64,000 nucleotides of DNA. Origin: Bacteroides mediterraneensis. GTDB lineage: Bacteria > Bacteroidota > Bacteroidia > Bacteroidales > Bacteroidaceae. Position numbers and translations under genes: made by a program. Below are positions 18,061 to 46,974 of this stretch, in pieces. The DNA lies in NCBI RefSeq assembly GCF_900128455.1, contig NZ_LT635783.1, forward strand, positions 3,656,359 through 3,720,358. The letters are read 5' to 3'. Each line of letters starts with the position of its first letter. The first letter of the stretch is position 1. Under the pieces are notes generated by a model, which worked only from the letters and a program-made list of their open reading frames with translations, was not told the DNA's origin and searched no databases.

Positions 18061-18150
18061 TCTCTGTTTCACACTGTGGGATACAAAAACCACAGTGTGG
18101 GATACATATCTCACACTGTGAAATACAAATCCCGCCATGCGGTACAGAGA
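18061..18150 (+). repeat. 90-bp dispersed palindromic element, copy 1
   Basis: Terminal inverted repeats TCTCTGT (18061-18067) and ACAGAGA (18144-18150) enclose four 9-bp cores starting exactly 21 bp apart. These are CACACTGTG (18070), CACAGTGTG (18091), CACACTGTG (18112) and a degenerate CGCCATGCG (18133). The 12-nt spacers are of the GGATACANAAAC type. The same architecture recurs at 44620-44709. The element is flanked by AAAT on both sides (18057-18060, 18151-18154), a possible but very short target duplication. Confidence 0.9.
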
Positions 18151-40572: not shown

Positions 40573-40619
40573 ATAAAAAAAGTGATTCTTTCCACAACTG
40601 AAAAGAATCACTTTTTTTA
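40573..40619 (+). terminator. Bidirectional terminator between the M20 gene and GH31
   Basis: AAAGTGATTCTTT and AAAGAATCACTTT form a stem with A and T runs extending the pairing, between convergent genes. Confidence 0.92.
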
Positions 40620-40624
40620 TGGCA

Positions 40625-43600
40625 TCAGAACTTCACGGTATTCATGTACTTGTCTACCAACATGCCGTCCAAGACCTTCAAATCCAGTTTTTGTTTACGC
40701 TTTGCCTTAAACTTGATGGTCATCAGTTCTGCATCCCCTTCCAGGTAAGGCTTTTCTCCCATATTTACGAACGTAGGATACAAGGCCTTCGTCCCGCTGG
40801 TGTGCAGACGGTCGTTGGTCAGGTTCCGCATTTCCTTCATGCCTGTACCCTCTATCCCCACATACTCCAACAGCTGCGGGTCATAAGGCAGTGCGAAACT
40901 GAGGGTATTGACAGAACGCAGTCCTTTACCGGATACCCGGATTTCCACTGTCTCCCCTTCATTGTACACTTTCTTTGAAGGAACTATCTGAATCTCTCCG
41001 GCCACTGCTGGTACCTGACGGCTGCTGACGCCAGTCTCCAGTCGTACAGCTACGGCAGAAATGTCATACGCATCAATCAGACCGTTATCGTTCAGGTCAC
41101 CCTTGCTGATATATCCCTCAAAATCGGAATCGCCCCGGCGCAGACCTGTATAATTCATATAAGAAGTCAGGTCATTCTCGTCCACCAGTTTATCCTGGTT
41201 GATGTCGCCCGGAATATAGCTTTCCGAGCCCGGCACCTTGAATACATACAATTCACGACCGGAGCCATATTTACCTACGGCCGAGGTTACCGACAGCTTG
41301 AGATAGCGTGCGGTCGGATGTTCGGTAAAGACAAAGGTCTTCACGTCACTGCCCTTCCAGTCGAACGTACCGGCTTCGTGCCAGTTCGATTTGTCCATAC
41401 TATAATATACCGTACCCTTACCCAGCGTACCGTTTCCGGCATCCAGACGAGGCAGGTATTCAAACCTGTCGAGCTGGTTCACACTGTTCAAATCCACAAT
41501 CAAATCGAATGGAACGGCCTGGGCACTCCATTGCGTATGCCATGCATCCCCTTCATCAAAATTGAAGAGTTTGTTCACTTCCTGACCTTCCTGGTTCGGA
41601 CAAGTCGTTTCACCCGTAATACCCCGGATGGCAAATTCCAGCGGGTCGGACTTCGTGGTGGCAGTGACAGTTGCCCAGTCGGACACACCCGCAGCATTCA
41701 CCGCACGCACCTTAAATGTACAGGTCGTTTCCGGACGGAGGTCTTCAAACAACAGTCGGGTATCCCGGATGGTACTATACAACATACCGTTGTACTCTAT
41801 CTCATAATAATCGGCATGGTCCACCTTCTTCCAGGAAGGAGTCAGCGTATAAGCCCCGGTATTCTCTTCCGTGACCTGTGGTTCCGGAGTGGCCAATGCC
41901 CCCTGGCTGACCCGCAGTTTTTCTGCTGGAGCAAACACATAACCTTTCACTTCCAACGTCACTTCATTCCGTGTCACATCCACTGCCGCCAGCTTGACAT
42001 GCATCACCGGATTCTTCACCACCTGCACACGGGCCATCTCACTGCCCGGAGTGGCAAAACGGTTCAACTCCGGAGCGGCTTCATAATAATATACATTTTC
42101 TCCCTTCTGCAATGCCTCCAAAGAAGACACCGGAGCCAGTTTCACTTTCTTCCCTCCGATATATGCCGTCAGTTTCTTCGGCTGTGCCGTCACATTGAGG
42201 CGGAAATAAGTAGCCTTTTCTGTCACCATTCCTTCAAAATAACCTTGCGAAGGTGCCACACTGACTTTCAGGTCTTCCCCTTCCAGCATCGAACGGATAA
42301 GAGTCGTCGCATACTGTCCGTCACGATAGGCTTCAGAGATACCATCGTCATCGTATTCCGTAAATTCCGTGTTTCCAGCCGGATACAGTTCATACGTACG
42401 GATGTTTTTCGCCATCTGGGCCACCTGATTATGTGCGGCCGTCATGGGCAGAATGGCTCCCTGCTTCACGAACAACGGGAGTTTCCACAAGGGGGCGTCA
42501 AAACAGTTGATGACCCGTCCGCCTGCATACAAGTCGCCGGTGAAAAAATCAATCCAGTTGCCTTCGGGCAGATAAATGCCGTGACGCACATCGTTACCCT
42601 TCTCGTCGGCCTGTGTCTTCTGGTACACAGGAGCCACCAGAATAGAAGGTCCGTAAAGGAACTGATAACGAGTGGCTGTTCCCAGCGTATAGTCATTCGG
42701 ATAATCCAGGAACATCGCCCGAATCATCGGCTTGCCATCCACCGCCTCATGCGCAATGCTATAGGTATAGGGCATGAACTCCGATTTCAGTTTAAGGTAC
42801 CAGCGGTTAATGGAAGTGGCCGGTTCACCCAAAGCCTGCGGATATTTGGGGTTCGCTCCCCATCCGTCCATGTTCAGCTGCATCGGCGTAAACGCTTTCC
42901 ACTCGAAGTCACGCACGTTGACCGGAATGTTCTTCCCGCCGAAAATACCATCCATGTCGGAAGTGATGTTCGGCTGTCCCGACAGTCCGGAACCGATATA
43001 AGTCGGGATATGGAAACGGATGTATTCCCACTCTCCTCCGGTCTGATCGCCCGACCAGATACCGGCATAACGCTGTGTTCCGGCCCATCCGTCGAGTGAG
43101 ATAATGAACGGACGTGCATTGTTGCCATAATAAGGCATGATACGGGCCACATCGGCCACCCCGTTCAAGCCGAACGAATAGCCGGCACCGACCCATGCCA
43201 CATCGGTTTTCAACACTCGCACGCCGGCGTCACGCACTTCCTTGACAATGTCACGCTGCAACAGCGGTTCCACTCCTTCCTTGGGATGCAAATCCGACTG
43301 GGTCCACAAACCAATTTCTACTCCCTTCGCACGGGCATAGTCGCCCAGTTCCTTCAGGTTCTGGATGTTTCCGTCCAGTGTGGAAGTCTGTCCGTACCCG
43401 GCCCCATAGCCATCATTCGGCAGAATCCATCCCAACGGCATATCGGCTGCCTCATAACGGTCGATGACCGCACGTGCAGAAAACTGATAGTTATTCTTCT
43501 CGCCATTCAGCGATTCCTTGATACCGCCATTGCCTTTTTGGCTTTCCTTGTATTTCTTGCCATCCTCGAAAAGAATCCCTTTTTCGTCTTCTTTCCAATA

Positions 43601-44440
43601 GTCACGGTTGTAGGCATTCAAATGTCCTTCATAAAATCCAAACTTAGGCAGGAGCACCGGATTACCCGTCAGCTGATAAAAATCATTCAGCAGAGCGACC
43701 GGAGTTTCATCCACCATGAAAAACACATCCAAGTAATTTCCCTCGTGACTCAACGCCACCACACCTTTATCGGTTGCCCCGAAATCATATACTCCGGGAC
43801 AGAAAGTATGCCACATCACTCCATAACCTTCCGTCGACCAATAAAAAGGTGTGGGAGAAGCCACCCCGCCGTCTGTCCATTGGTTCGTATTCAAGATATG
43901 AATCTTCTTGCCTTTATGGGAGAAGCGGCCGTTCTGCACCCCTCCGCCGTAAAAATACTCTCCCTCCTGCGCTTTCAGGAAAAGGCTGACCTGTTTCTCT
44001 GCGAAATCTGCCGGGCGAACAGCTTCTGCCACCACTTTCTGGCGCGCTTTATCCGTAATCTTGAACAGCATGGTGCGCTTGTCCATCTCTACCTCAATCC
44101 GGCTGGTAGCCACTGTAATAACTCCATCCTTGTCTGTCAAGGAAAGTTTTCCTACCTCCTGACGCGGGTTATTCACCAAAATCTGGGCTTCGGGTACAGC
44201 TTCCGGATTGCGGACAATGCCTCCTTTATTGTCCTGAAACAAGCGAAAAATATTTTCGCCATAAAAATCGAGTGTCATACGCTGCTGATTGGAAAAAACA
44301 ATCTCTACAGCCGTCGGATTCAACACACTGGCACTGCAAATGGTCACTTCAGTTTGCGGACCAGCCCACATGGGAAAAGGTGCAGTAAGCAAACTGCCGA
44401 ACATGCAGAAAGTCAAAACAGAATAATGCTTCAGTTTCAT
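40625..44440 (-). CDS. Multi-modular GH31 glycosidase with F5/8C, dockerin and cohesin-like modules
   Basis: A 1271-residue exported enzyme. A signal peptide (about 1-26) is followed by an N-terminal beta-sandwich and the GH31 TIM barrel. The barrel includes MPLGWILPNDGYGAGYGQ and VGAGYSFGLNG after the likely nucleophile aspartate of VLKTDVAW (about residue 415); GH31 members are alpha-glucosidases, alpha-xylosidases or alpha-galactosidases. An FN3-like unit lies at about 845-934 (PETTCTFKVRAVNAAGVSDW), an F5/8-type C domain at about 935-1073 (ARYLKLSVTSAVGKYGSGREL) and a dockerin-like pair of calcium loops at about 1074-1140 (GDINQDKLVDENDL and GDLNDNGLIDAYDI). The C-terminal 123 residues look like a cohesin/CBM-type beta-sandwich (GETVEIRVSGKGLRSVNTLSFALPYDP). 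No polysaccharide locus flanks it. Substrate undetermined. Confidence 0.9.
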   Translation of the reverse strand: MKLKHYSVLTFCMFGSLLTAPFPMWAGPQTEVTICSASVLNPTAVEIVFSNQQRMTLDFYGENIFRLFQDNKGGIVRNPEAVPEAQILVNNPRQEVGKLSLTDKDGVITVATSRIEVEMDKRTMLFKITDKARQKVVAEAVRPADFAEKQVSLFLKAQEGEYFYGGGVQNGRFSHKGKKIHILNTNQWTDGGVASPTPFYWSTEGYGVMWHTFCPGVYDFGATDKGVVALSHEGNYLDVFFMVDETPVALLNDFYQLTGNPVLLPKFGFYEGHLNAYNRDYWKEDEKGILFEDGKKYKESQKGNGGIKESLNGEKNNYQFSARAVIDRYEAADMPLGWILPNDGYGAGYGQTSTLDGNIQNLKELGDYARAKGVEIGLWTQSDLHPKEGVEPLLQRDIVKEVRDAGVRVLKTDVAWVGAGYSFGLNGVADVARIMPYYGNNARPFIISLDGWAGTQRYAGIWSGDQTGGEWEYIRFHIPTYIGSGLSGQPNITSDMDGIFGGKNIPVNVRDFEWKAFTPMQLNMDGWGANPKYPQALGEPATSINRWYLKLKSEFMPYTYSIAHEAVDGKPMIRAMFLDYPNDYTLGTATRYQFLYGPSILVAPVYQKTQADEKGNDVRHGIYLPEGNWIDFFTGDLYAGGRVINCFDAPLWKLPLFVKQGAILPMTAAHNQVAQMAKNIRTYELYPAGNTEFTEYDDDGISEAYRDGQYATTLIRSMLEGEDLKVSVAPSQGYFEGMVTEKATYFRLNVTAQPKKLTAYIGGKKVKLAPVSSLEALQKGENVYYYEAAPELNRFATPGSEMARVQVVKNPVMHVKLAAVDVTRNEVTLEVKGYVFAPAEKLRVSQGALATPEPQVTEENTGAYTLTPSWKKVDHADYYEIEYNGMLYSTIRDTRLLFEDLRPETTCTFKVRAVNAAGVSDWATVTATTKSDPLEFAIRGITGETTCPNQEGQEVNKLFNFDEGDAWHTQWSAQAVPFDLIVDLNSVNQLDRFEYLPRLDAGNGTLGKGTVYYSMDKSNWHEAGTFDWKGSDVKTFVFTEHPTARYLKLSVTSAVGKYGSGRELYVFKVPGSESYIPGDINQDKLVDENDLTSYMNYTGLRRGDSDFEGYISKGDLNDNGLIDAYDISAVAVRLETGVSSRQVPAVAGEIQIVPSKKVYNEGETVEIRVSGKGLRSVNTLSFALPYDPQLLEYVGIEGTGMKEMRNLTNDRLHTSGTKALYPTFVNMGEKPYLEGDAELMTIKFKAKRKQKLDLKVLDGMLVDKYMNTVKF

Positions 44441-44619
44441 AATATGAATGCGGTTAATGATTTTCAGATTCTTTCCACCGTCTTTCTCAGACTCGCAATG
44501 AAAAGCGTACGAAAGAATAACTATTTATTGAAGTAAAAAAGTAAATCCCTCAAACTTTTTTTCATTTTATTATTTTCCCCATAATGAAAATGAATATAAT
44601 TTATTATATAAGCACAATT

Positions 44620-44709
44620 TCTCTGTCCCACAGTGTGGGATACATAAACCACACTGTGAAATACATAAACCACAGTGTGGGATATAAATACCAAAGTGTG
44701 AAACAGAGA
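44620..44709 (+). repeat. 90-bp dispersed palindromic element, copy 2
   Basis: Same architecture and length as 18061-18150: TCTCTGT (44620-44626) and ACAGAGA (44703-44709) enclose cores CACAGTGTG (44629), CACACTGTG (44650), CACAGTGTG (44671) and CAAAGTGTG (44692), exactly 21 bp apart, with 12-nt spacers such as GGATACATAAAC. It lies about 180 bp upstream of the GH31 start and 60 bp from the terminator of the next operon. Confidence 0.9.
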
Positions 44710-44772
44710 TATTATCAGGGAAAAGGAAGGAATTCGTACTTGTCCTGAAAACTTTGTGGCACTGTATTCCAC

Positions 44773-44807
44773 AAAAAAGGCCTCAGGCAGCATAACCACC
44801 TGAAGCC
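44773..44807 (-). terminator. Terminator of the dut-TPR-DUF4292-EnvC operon
   Basis: On the minus strand GGCTTCAGG pairs with CCTGAGGCC (one G-T pair), followed by six or more Ts. It lies 30 bp after the EnvC-like stop. Confidence 0.88.
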
Positions 44808-44836
44808 CTTTCTTATAAATCAAAACAGGAATACTT

Positions 44837-46144
44837 TTAGCGATGTAGCCAAAGTTCCGGATTCAGTTTCACCGTCTCCTTTCGGAGCTGGAAGTGCAGA
44901 ATGGTTTCTCCTTCAGCATTGGTATGCACTTCGCCCAGCACATCACGGGCACGTACCAGACTCCCTTTCTTCACGCGTACCGTCGACAGGTTGCAATACA
45001 CCGAAATATAACTTCCATGGCGTACCAGCACATTGGTCAGCCCGTTGTATTGGAAGACAGCCGACACCTCACCATCAAAAATGGCCCGCGCATTGGCACC
45101 TGCTTTCCCCTTGATATCGATTCCTTTATTGTCCAGTTTCACATTGCGGAGCCCTTTCACCTGATATTGGCCGTAATGTCCGACCACTACATAAGGGCCG
45201 GTAATCGGTACCGGAAGAATACCTTTGTTTCGCTCAAAAACACCGGACAACCGCCGGTCTTCCGAATCCACTTTATAGGCTTCCAGTTTCTCTACAGGTG
45301 TCTTGACCGTTTTCGTTTCCGTGGAAGACGCTTCAGACGTGCCTTTTGCTGCTTCCGCTTGTTTCCGGGCTTCCTCTGCTTTCCGTCGTGCTTCCTCTTC
45401 CGCACGTTTACGGGCCTTTTCTATTTCCTCCTCAATCAAACGGTCAATCTGGGCATTCAGCTTATCGGCCGAACGGCGTTGTTTGGCCAGCTCCGACTGG
45501 ATGCTGCGCTGCTTCTTCTGCAAACCCGAGAGAATTTGTTTGCGTTCCTGCTCCTGCGCTACCAGCTTGGCCTTTTCAGCCTCTCCCTGCTTCAGCAAGT
45601 CCTCTTTGGCTTTCCGGCTGTTTCTCAACGAAGTAGCCTTATCCGTCACCTGTTTCTGCTTCCGCTGTACCTGAATACCCTGCACACGCTGGTAGTCCGC
45701 ATATTCACGTACATACCGCATGCGACGGTACATCTGCCCGAAATTCTCGGCCGAAAAAATGAACATCAGCTTGTCCTGTATGGATTTGTTCCGGTAAAGA
45801 TATTTCACAGACTGCTCATACTTCTGGCGTTTCTCAGACAGTTCTTTCTGAAGCCGTTTCAAGTCCTGCTCCAGCCGATTGATTTCCTGCTGGATACTGT
45901 TTACATCATTTTCAATGGTCTGGATATATTTCTGACGCTCCTCTATCTGTCCGGAAATCAGTGCCAGATTACCCAACTGGCTTTTCACGTCCTTCTTGGT
46001 GGACTGCAACAGCGTTTCCGACTCGGCAATCTGCCGCTTCAGCTCATTCCGCTGCTGCTCCAACTGCCGAATCTTTCGCGTAGTCTGTGCAAAAAGCGAA
46101 CAGGTGCTCAGACAAATACAGAATATGACTATCAGACGCTTCAT
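44837..46144 (-). CDS. EnvC-like murein hydrolase activator (degenerate LytM domain)
   Basis: A 435-residue exported coiled-coil protein with a C-terminal M23/LytM domain. I start it at the ATG at 46144, which overlaps the DUF4292 stop (ATGA). A signal peptide (MKRLIVIFCICLSTCSLFAQ) is followed by a long coiled coil (about 21-290, ending in a Lys/Glu/Ala-rich stretch with EEEARRKAEEARKQAEAAKG) and the LytM domain (about 325-435). The zinc-site positions look altered: the first histidine is replaced in NKGIDIKGKAG, and the usual HxH reads HFQ in ILHFQLRKE. This matches non-enzymatic EnvC-type activators that switch on amidases at the division septum. Confidence 0.88.
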   Translation of the reverse strand: MKRLIVIFCICLSTCSLFAQTTRKIRQLEQQRNELKRQIAESETLLQSTKKDVKSQLGNLALISGQIEERQKYIQTIENDVNSIQQEINRLEQDLKRLQKELSEKRQKYEQSVKYLYRNKSIQDKLMFIFSAENFGQMYRRMRYVREYADYQRVQGIQVQRKQKQVTDKATSLRNSRKAKEDLLKQGEAEKAKLVAQEQERKQILSGLQKKQRSIQSELAKQRRSADKLNAQIDRLIEEEIEKARKRAEEEARRKAEEARKQAEAAKGTSEASSTETKTVKTPVEKLEAYKVDSEDRRLSGVFERNKGILPVPITGPYVVVGHYGQYQVKGLRNVKLDNKGIDIKGKAGANARAIFDGEVSAVFQYNGLTNVLVRHGSYISVYCNLSTVRVKKGSLVRARDVLGEVHTNAEGETILHFQLRKETVKLNPELWLHR

Positions 46145-46974
46145 TTTCCTAACCACATTTTCAACAACGTTGCCAGTTCCATCTTCTTATACTTGGAAGA
46201 TAACTCCGTACGGGTCTCCCAGTCTTCATTGACAGACATCCGCGAAAGGCGCATGTCCAGACTGTATCCTTTCCCGGCACCCTGCAGTTCCGCCAGAATA
46301 TGTTGAGGGAAATATCCCGGCCCCAGCTTGCCAAAATCTCCATACGTCCATTTCAAGGCATAAGCCGTACCCTGCAGAGATACGGAAGTGGTTTCCAGCC
46401 AACCTTTGTCGACCGTAGTCCAGAAGCGATAAGCCAGCCGCTTGCTGTCCTTCACTTCCCACAGTGCATGTGTTCCCTCTGCGGTCATCCGGAAACGGGA
46501 CAAATCGGCCACTTCCACCTGTTCTTTTCCAGGCAGGAAAATCTCATTCAAGAACAGCGACTGCAACACATTAAAACTCAAATTCAGGTCGGTCATCCGG
46601 TTCAATTCAACGAAAGAAAGTTCCACATACTGCTTGTGAAGGCGGTCGACCGCCAGAATACGTTCGGGAGAAATCTCCAGCCGCGCCACTTCAATGCCCA
46701 GCAGAGGAGCCACCGACAGTTGTATCACCTCCCCTTTCTTCATCCGGAGCGTAGCCGACAGTTTCGTATTCTTGCTACCTCCTGTCTGCAAATTCAAGGC
46801 TACTTTTCCGGTCACACAGTTCCAATGGGGAAAATTAGAGACCACTTTTTCCTGGTATTCCTCTCCTTTCAGTCCTCCAATCATCGGACTCCGTTCCGCA
46901 TGACGTGAGGCACTACACGCCGAGAGTATCCCTACCAGGCATATCACATATAACCAATGCACCAACCGTTTCAT
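46141..46974 (-). CDS. DUF4292 lipoprotein
   Basis: A 277-residue lipoprotein (signal plus lipobox, ICLVGILSAC) of the DUF4292 family, conserved in Bacteroidales. Recognisable blocks are VTGKVALNLQTGGSKNTKLSATLRMKKGEVIQLSVAPLLGIEVARLEISPERI, repeated beta strands, and a C-terminal FPQHILAELQGAGKGYSLDMRLSRMSVNEDWET. The fold class looks like the LolA/LolB-type lipoprotein half-barrel, but function is not established. It overlaps the TPR gene upstream by 4 bp and the EnvC gene downstream by 4 bp, so all three are coupled. Confidence 0.85.
   Translation of the reverse strand: MKRLVHWLYVICLVGILSACSASRHAERSPMIGGLKGEEYQEKVVSNFPHWNCVTGKVALNLQTGGSKNTKLSATLRMKKGEVIQLSVAPLLGIEVARLEISPERILAVDRLHKQYVELSFVELNRMTDLNLSFNVLQSLFLNEIFLPGKEQVEVADLSRFRMTAEGTHALWEVKDSKRLAYRFWTTVDKGWLETTSVSLQGTAYALKWTYGDFGKLGPGYFPQHILAELQGAGKGYSLDMRLSRMSVNEDWETRTELSSKYKKMELATLLKMWLGK

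Follow-up and report, generated by a model that had tools for sequence, protein, structure and literature searches.

In this study, we followed a 90-bp element from the window analysed here, a stretch of 64,000 nucleotides, through the genome that holds it (G000; 4.08 Mb, 99.98% complete, 18 contigs) and through the genomes of its relatives. Our findings establish that the element belongs to a genuine family of phased dyad arrays, shaped by selection and comprising more than one type: the architecture is a defined one, the cores, ends and spacing are under selection, the places are conserved, several types occur in one genome, and type A in one species faces type B or D at the same place in another. 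Their anatomy is best read as a row of dyads each of which would bind a symmetric, putative protein, and the arrays of Phocaeicola look like a chromosomal set of docking stations for proteins that seems to be undescribed. That they are operator-like docking arrays acting on the DNA, in chromosome structure or maintenance, with types replaced in place, is a reading to which we give about an even chance. If it is true, common gut bacteria possess chromosomal docking sites with turnover of binding specificity; the reading is directly testable, since the arrays are short, numerous and known to the nucleotide and two species differ in type at the same places. Beyond a preliminary description of this DNA, the present analysis adds the count of 21 copies, the existence of several more types of array and the finding that a relative has other sequences at the corresponding places.

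The array under study is composed of TCTCTGT, four 9-base cores at a 21-bp period and ACAGAGA (table 1). A pattern of two cores (12-bp spacing, up to three mismatches) matches six times in the window against 0.29 expected from shuffles, and a tandem repeat finder detects both window copies. The preliminary description had given the second copy the same 90-bp length, terminal repeats and core spacing as the first, with CACAGTGTG instead of CACACTGTG as first core and CAAAGTGTG as last, all of which is correct on reading the sequence. It had also taken the fourth core to be the most degenerate and both copies to point the same way: the former turned out to be general (a mean of 1.42 bits against 1.91-2.00 in cores 1-3, over 20 copies), and the latter is right for the window, the strands of the 21 copies genome-wide being 16 plus, four minus and one undecidable. 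Frames of at least 100 aa cross the arrays of L010, L019 and L023 as well as that of the window, where the 7-residue repeats that the same description had called spurious are carried by a 100-aa frame (44521-44823, minus strand) free of Pfam matches. None of five array-crossing frames matches Pfam at E 0.1; we take them as by-products of the 21-bp period and reject a coding repeat. Peptidase_M23 was matched by one of 20 flanking proteins (Pfam), probably the one following the array. On the other side, 3' of the glycoside hydrolase gene, an AT-rich inverted repeat (40573-40620; 22-nt arms, 95% complementary) looks like a bidirectional terminator.

Table 1. Positions, in the window, of the array, its parts, its second copy and its neighbours.
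Feature	Position	Strand	Remarks
Type A array, copy 2 (the element under study)	44620..44709	+	four dyads at 21 bp, inverted ends flanking
Left end TCTCTGT	44620..44626	+	same in 20/20 long copies
Right end ACAGAGA	44703..44709	+	inverted repeat of TCTCTGT
Core 1 CACAGTGTG	44629..44637	.	
Core 2 CACACTGTG	44650..44658	.	
Core 3 CACAGTGTG	44671..44679	.	
Core 4 CAAAGTGTG	44692..44700	.	degenerate core
Type A array, copy 1	18061..18150	+	architecture as copy 2
Neighbour: glycoside hydrolase family 31 (GH31) protein	40625..44440	-	start 179 bp from array, array upstream
Neighbour: probable peptidase M23 (EnvC-like) protein	44837..46156	-	array downstream of stop

A sequence-only covariance model built from 20 copies (A1, R1) finds 21 type A loci in G000. 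Twenty measure exactly 90 bp from TCTCTGT to ACAGAGA; the remaining one, with two cores in 48 bp, has probably lost two units, for four cores are present in the B. mediterraneensis orthologue. We judged all 21 to be intergenic, in divergent, tandem and convergent contexts alike (frames from a simple script). Of 40 flanking frames of at least 90 aa, 38 were compared with Pfam, the two of L016 being excluded. Among the families listed (25 of 42 and 25 of 46), each occurs in one protein; they include RecA, topoisomerase, cytidylate kinase, malate dehydrogenase, GH31 and TonB, as well as one HU-like DNA-binding protein (HU-HIG) and one response regulator. With each neighbouring family in a single protein, the arrays do not mark one regulon, and we rejected that candidate. 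Three adjoining genes may be mentioned: one that probably encodes the HU-HIG protein (L018:5102-5737), a short one probably for a YoeB-like toxin (L021:5190-5462) and a long one, probably for an AAA-ATPase/PDDEXK_9 protein (L013:5292-6850), which stands at the array in G000 and is absent from the corresponding place in P. plebeius.

Conservation was compared within and between genomes. Across 20 paralogues of G000 the cores hold 1.82 bits and the spacers 1.54 (Mann-Whitney p 0.0006), spacer 1 being also well kept (1.68). An array lies at the orthologous place in the sister species B. mediterraneensis An793 (G022) for 18 of the 21 copies, on which ground we rejected recent duplication, in line with the preliminary description. 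Leaving aside the two-core pair L027/L065, all 17 pairs align without gaps from end to end with 77-88 identities of 90 (91.7%), against 81.4% identity and 558 gap columns in their 120-bp flanks; as paralogues within G000 are 84.1% identical, the orthologues have a common history. Substitutions in these pairs avoid cores 1-3 without their centres (7/408, 0.017 per site) and the ends (7/238, 0.029), and fall on the spacers (54/612, 0.088) and core 4 (15/136). The centres of cores 1-3 changed in 14 of 51 cases, all 14 between C and G, and every one of the 20 long copies of G000 has C or G at these positions. Cores and ends are better kept than spacers in both comparisons, and the selection on dyads and geometry suggested earlier from two copies is supported by the gapless pairs, by the 20 of 21 copies of exact length and by the placing of substitutions; the alignment of all copies, carried out as that description had proposed, gave no uniform divergence, the outcome it had named as contrary. 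R1 finds 22 type A loci in G022, 18 with a partner in G000; 19 were also found by a search for three exact perfect cores, and the bias of that pattern in the whole orthologue set is small. Three loci (L125, L127, L286) were fetched without the core pattern and are, by that choice, arrays with a damaged core; their pairs have cores 1-3 no better kept than spacers (5/72 against 8/108). Spacers are well kept within G000 too, as copies from one source would be, and the likeness of its arrays is owed in part to descent. Within some type A arrays (L025:4963-5052, L012, L016) spacers occur in changed order and orientation, as recombination between palindromic cores would produce. These inversions, the swaps of C and G at the centres and the two-core copy together point to frequent inversion and slippage between palindromes.

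Type A (CACASTGTG, 21 bp) is one of several. Type B (GTTTC-N8-GAAAC, 22 bp) is carried by P. plebeius and has 43 loci in G000, found by a second model (R2) with 150 of 796 candidates scored; two of them are partial and weak and one lies on a small contig. Type C (TTCCA-N5-TGGAA, 21 bp) has 11 loci in G016, and in G059 four dyads at 21 bp are kept with drifted cores; in both genomes most arrays stand elsewhere than at the orthologues of the G000 places. A dyad-array detector, its threshold set above 20 triplet-shuffled controls, found types D (AAACGCAAGTGCGTTT), E (CAGTACT) and F in a 400-kb sample of G000, and further types in 400-kb samples of G016 and of the vulgatus-like G010, some single matches being probably due to chance. 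In the G000 sample 13 matches exceeded the threshold, three of them apparently by chance; extrapolation from the ten arrays left would give about a hundred per genome. Counts of arrays rest on models from 20, 6 and 6 arrays, which miss other types. Among 60 genomes of the genus, R1 finds type A in 19, G000 included, and R2 finds type B in 16. Arrays with cores like CGATTASTAATCG at 23 bp (L227:8284, L232:11642, L239:1776) belong to a further type in G016.

Ten type A places of G000 could be traced to P. plebeius, those of L009, L012 and L021 by one flank only. At seven of the ten, a four-dyad array of another sequence occupies the place: type B at the same intergenic position in six (L017, L022, L023, L027, L013, L021) and type D in one (L011, score 22.0). 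The regions of L009, L012 and L019 are without an array. At L017 the array starts 11 bp past the left aligned flank in G000 and 10 bp past it in P. plebeius, with about 88 bp to the right flank in both. The plebeius genome has at least 34 type B loci (at least 69 two-strand matches), and with six of ten type A places holding type B, chance hardly explains the agreement; R2 itself was built from these six plebeius arrays and finds them by construction. Places of the other types were followed in the same way: of 19, B3, B8 and F1 were not traceable in P. plebeius, and 12 of the remaining 16 keep their type (eight B, three D, one E). B9 has another type about 110 bp off, and B1, B2 and B5 have none. 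The plebeius types of B6, B10, B11 and B12 come from model matches beside the aligned flank and the others from fetched sequence; B4 and B7 lie just over the detector threshold, and B13 and B14, under it, were judged by eye. A single type A array is retained in P. plebeius and has its orthologue in B. mediterraneensis; close to a type B place of G000, P. plebeius also has an array of another type (GACACGTWCGTG, 22 bp; L275:474). This distribution suggests that in the lineage of G000 and B. mediterraneensis type A replaced older arrays of types B and D, the direction of the change being our inference. The vulgatus-like G010 has arrays in none of nine regions read for the type A loci, and from this and the patchy occurrence over the genus the function of the arrays, in their present form, is not essential.

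How might such arrays work? Four symmetric sites two helical turns apart would seat four dimers of one sequence-specific protein next to each other along the same face of the duplex. The arrays, of several specificities (A, B, C, D, E and others) and scattered between genes over the chromosome, would then act at the level of DNA, in chromosome structure or maintenance, and not as the switches of one regulon. Places would be kept by descent, and a new type would spread mainly by replacing existing arrays, as gene conversion between them would do; what is observed is only the outcome, different types at one place. The outer ends are alike in some A and B copies (TTCTMTGTTTC and GAAACAKAGAA) and could serve for it. 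A wider view, which we offer tentatively and think somewhat less probable than its opposite, is that Bacteroidales have a lasting grid of intergenic docking places, where a new specificity converts arrays in place and the places outlive the motif; each place would be a phased dyad array, mostly of four, and several specificities would coexist in a genome. We know of no bacterium for which a chromosome-organising system with such turnover of specificity has been described. A literature search that covered full texts, few of them from subscription journals, gave no title or opening of an abstract describing such arrays in Bacteroides or Phocaeicola.

Among other explanations, mobility survives best, though we think it unlikely. 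The arrays would be non-autonomous, MITE-like elements, moved in trans by a transposase that binds the dyads, with the inverted ends as transposon ends. Terminal inverted repeats are indeed present (TCTCTGT/ACAGAGA) on a set of 21 similar dispersed copies, the expansions in G016 and G059 are mostly at other places, and sequence types differ by lineage. Yet none of three aligned array-free sites shows a target duplication (D2 in G022, which is fairly clean, and B1 and L019 in P. plebeius, both ragged), 18 of the 21 places are common to two species, insertion by chance hardly puts A and B at one place in six of ten loci, and the arrays have no plasmid or phage match. The nearest described element of the order that we found is BrickBuilt, a MITE of Porphyromonas gingivalis; in the parts of the source consulted it has 19 intergenic copies in one strain, with tandem 23-nt units (AGAYCATARTATCCTCTCRTRTG) between small inverted ends that resemble those of P. 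gingivalis IS elements (PMC4596501). It shares with our arrays the order Bacteroidales, the intergenic setting, short tandem units and small inverted ends, but the unit AGAYCATARTATCCTCTCRTRTG is unrelated, the text consulted contains no word starting with 'palindrom' (PMC4596501), and by eye the arrays do not match its 23-nt unit and terminal repeats (GAGACCTTTGCA-like). Even if the arrays are mobile, different types at one place, with no transposase found in the search for Y1 enzymes, would need explaining.

A second rival is that the arrays mark a chromosome domain, in the manner of parS clusters or of the Noc or SlmA sites of nucleoid occlusion, and that type A is confined to the origin half; this we consider improbable. 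The sites of parS/ParB, Noc and SlmA are dispersed palindromes, mostly single, independent of local genes; those of Noc and SlmA keep out of the terminus region, and the Noc or SlmA protein acts on the divisome. The arrays are likewise dispersed, palindromic and independent of local genes, and the TTTCAC half-site of some type A dyads resembles the parS half-site; unlike those sites, they come in fours, with several specificities per genome and differences of type at shared places. With origin and terminus placed by GC skew (20 samples per genome), all 21 type A copies of G000 lie between 2.73 and 1.04 Mb, on the side that includes the GC-skew origin (near 0.13 Mb). The A-free 1.69 Mb from 1.04 to 2.73 Mb contains the GC-skew terminus (p 0.0005 against a uniform distribution; p 0.006 for the same gap when A and B labels are permuted). 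On average, type A copies lie closer to the origin than uniform placing would give (p 0.006), as do type B loci by a slight margin (p 0.045), but the two types do not differ in this mean distance (label permutation p 0.14). Near-complete G016 gives no origin bias, with means of 1.249 Mb for type C (11 loci) and 1.185 Mb for type B (15 loci, six weak matches excluded) against 1.061 Mb expected. Terminus avoidance is thus seen for type A in G000 and not for C or B in G016; a consistent origin bias, such as would liken the arrays to these sites, is lacking. The clustering in G000 is suggestive and not repeated, and we put aside a nucleoid occlusion or origin mark as improbable and build no conclusion on the clustering. 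The best DnaA-family match in G000 (L049, G000:C1:3211729) lies about 0.95 Mb from the GC-skew origin.

Still less probable is an action as transcribed RNA hairpins, be they terminators or mRNA stabilisers. Single-strand folding is strong: z is -6.0 and -7.2 for the two strands of the window array, -9.2 and -8.1 for two other type A copies, -3.0 to -6.5 for three type B arrays and -8.2 for one of type C. The long-hairpin fold joins the outer cores, 1 and 4, to each other, and likewise the inner ones, 2 and 3. The covariation test that the preliminary description had proposed was run on 45 arrays, 20 from G000 and 25 from relatives; the latter are mostly pattern-chosen loci, a choice that leaves the independence test unaffected, while the statement that centres are C or G rests on the 20 rows of G000 only. 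The centres at 14 and 77 are complementary in 19 rows and not in 24 (two further rows have A or T), and those at 35 and 56 in 23 and not in 22. As the centres of hairpin partners vary independently, every dyad stands as a unit by itself, which speaks for separate dyads bound by protein and against one long RNA hairpin, a candidate we rejected. Nor do the arrays prefer 3' ends, their neighbours, as machine-called frames, being divergent, tandem and convergent. Rfam has nothing at gathering score at the locus, its best weak match to the array being a plant-like miRNA model (23.3 of 171 bits, E 0.055).

REP and BIME elements are tied to Y1 transposases, a link taken partly from the abbreviations and a reference title in the source of the description given below. 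A REP/BIME identity for the arrays, with a RAYT (Y1) transposase as their mover, is very improbable: they too are dispersed intergenic palindromes with several sequence classes per genome, and type B has RTAG-like linkers, but they are phased fours of dyads with inverted ends, and a search with Y1_Tnp (PF01797) found no Y1 gene in G000, on which ground we rejected the candidate. The same search, for Y1 transposases only, found none in G022, G058, G010 and G041 either; three of 11 genomes were positive, as were five of 14 control genomes. In the parts of the source consulted, the GTAG and CGTC families are 20-40 bp palindromes bearing those tags (PMC3733652), a trait, with the tag at one end, that is absent from our 90-bp four-dyad arrays, type A having no tag.

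Further afield, the exact two-core pattern occurs in 2 of 393 genomes of the order, G000 included. The exact three-core pattern, sought in 84,980 species genomes, gives 57 stretches: 19 in B. mediterraneensis, 21 in an Alloprevotella MAG, seven in an uncultured Bacteroides MAG and ten in eight others; the matches in Acidobacteria and Lachnospiraceae look like unrelated minisatellites. In viral contigs, seven stretches have two cores at array spacing (exact pattern), none with TCTCTGT ends, and no plasmid or phage match to the array was found; a viral or plasmid origin was rejected on these grounds. One of the viral stretches, on a 359-kb IMG/VR contig (L111:2436-2732), shows a longer row of CACAGTGTGAT cores clustered every 20-21 bp and lacks TCTCTGT ends. 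A Parabacteroides MAG has four cores with ends unlike those of G000, and the Alloprevotella MAG has three such dyads at 21 bp with spacers unlike those of G000. In the latter, all 21 rows have TT preceding and AA following the searched core, both outside the search pattern, and the dyads are bordered at one further period on either side by a degenerate CATWATG palindrome.
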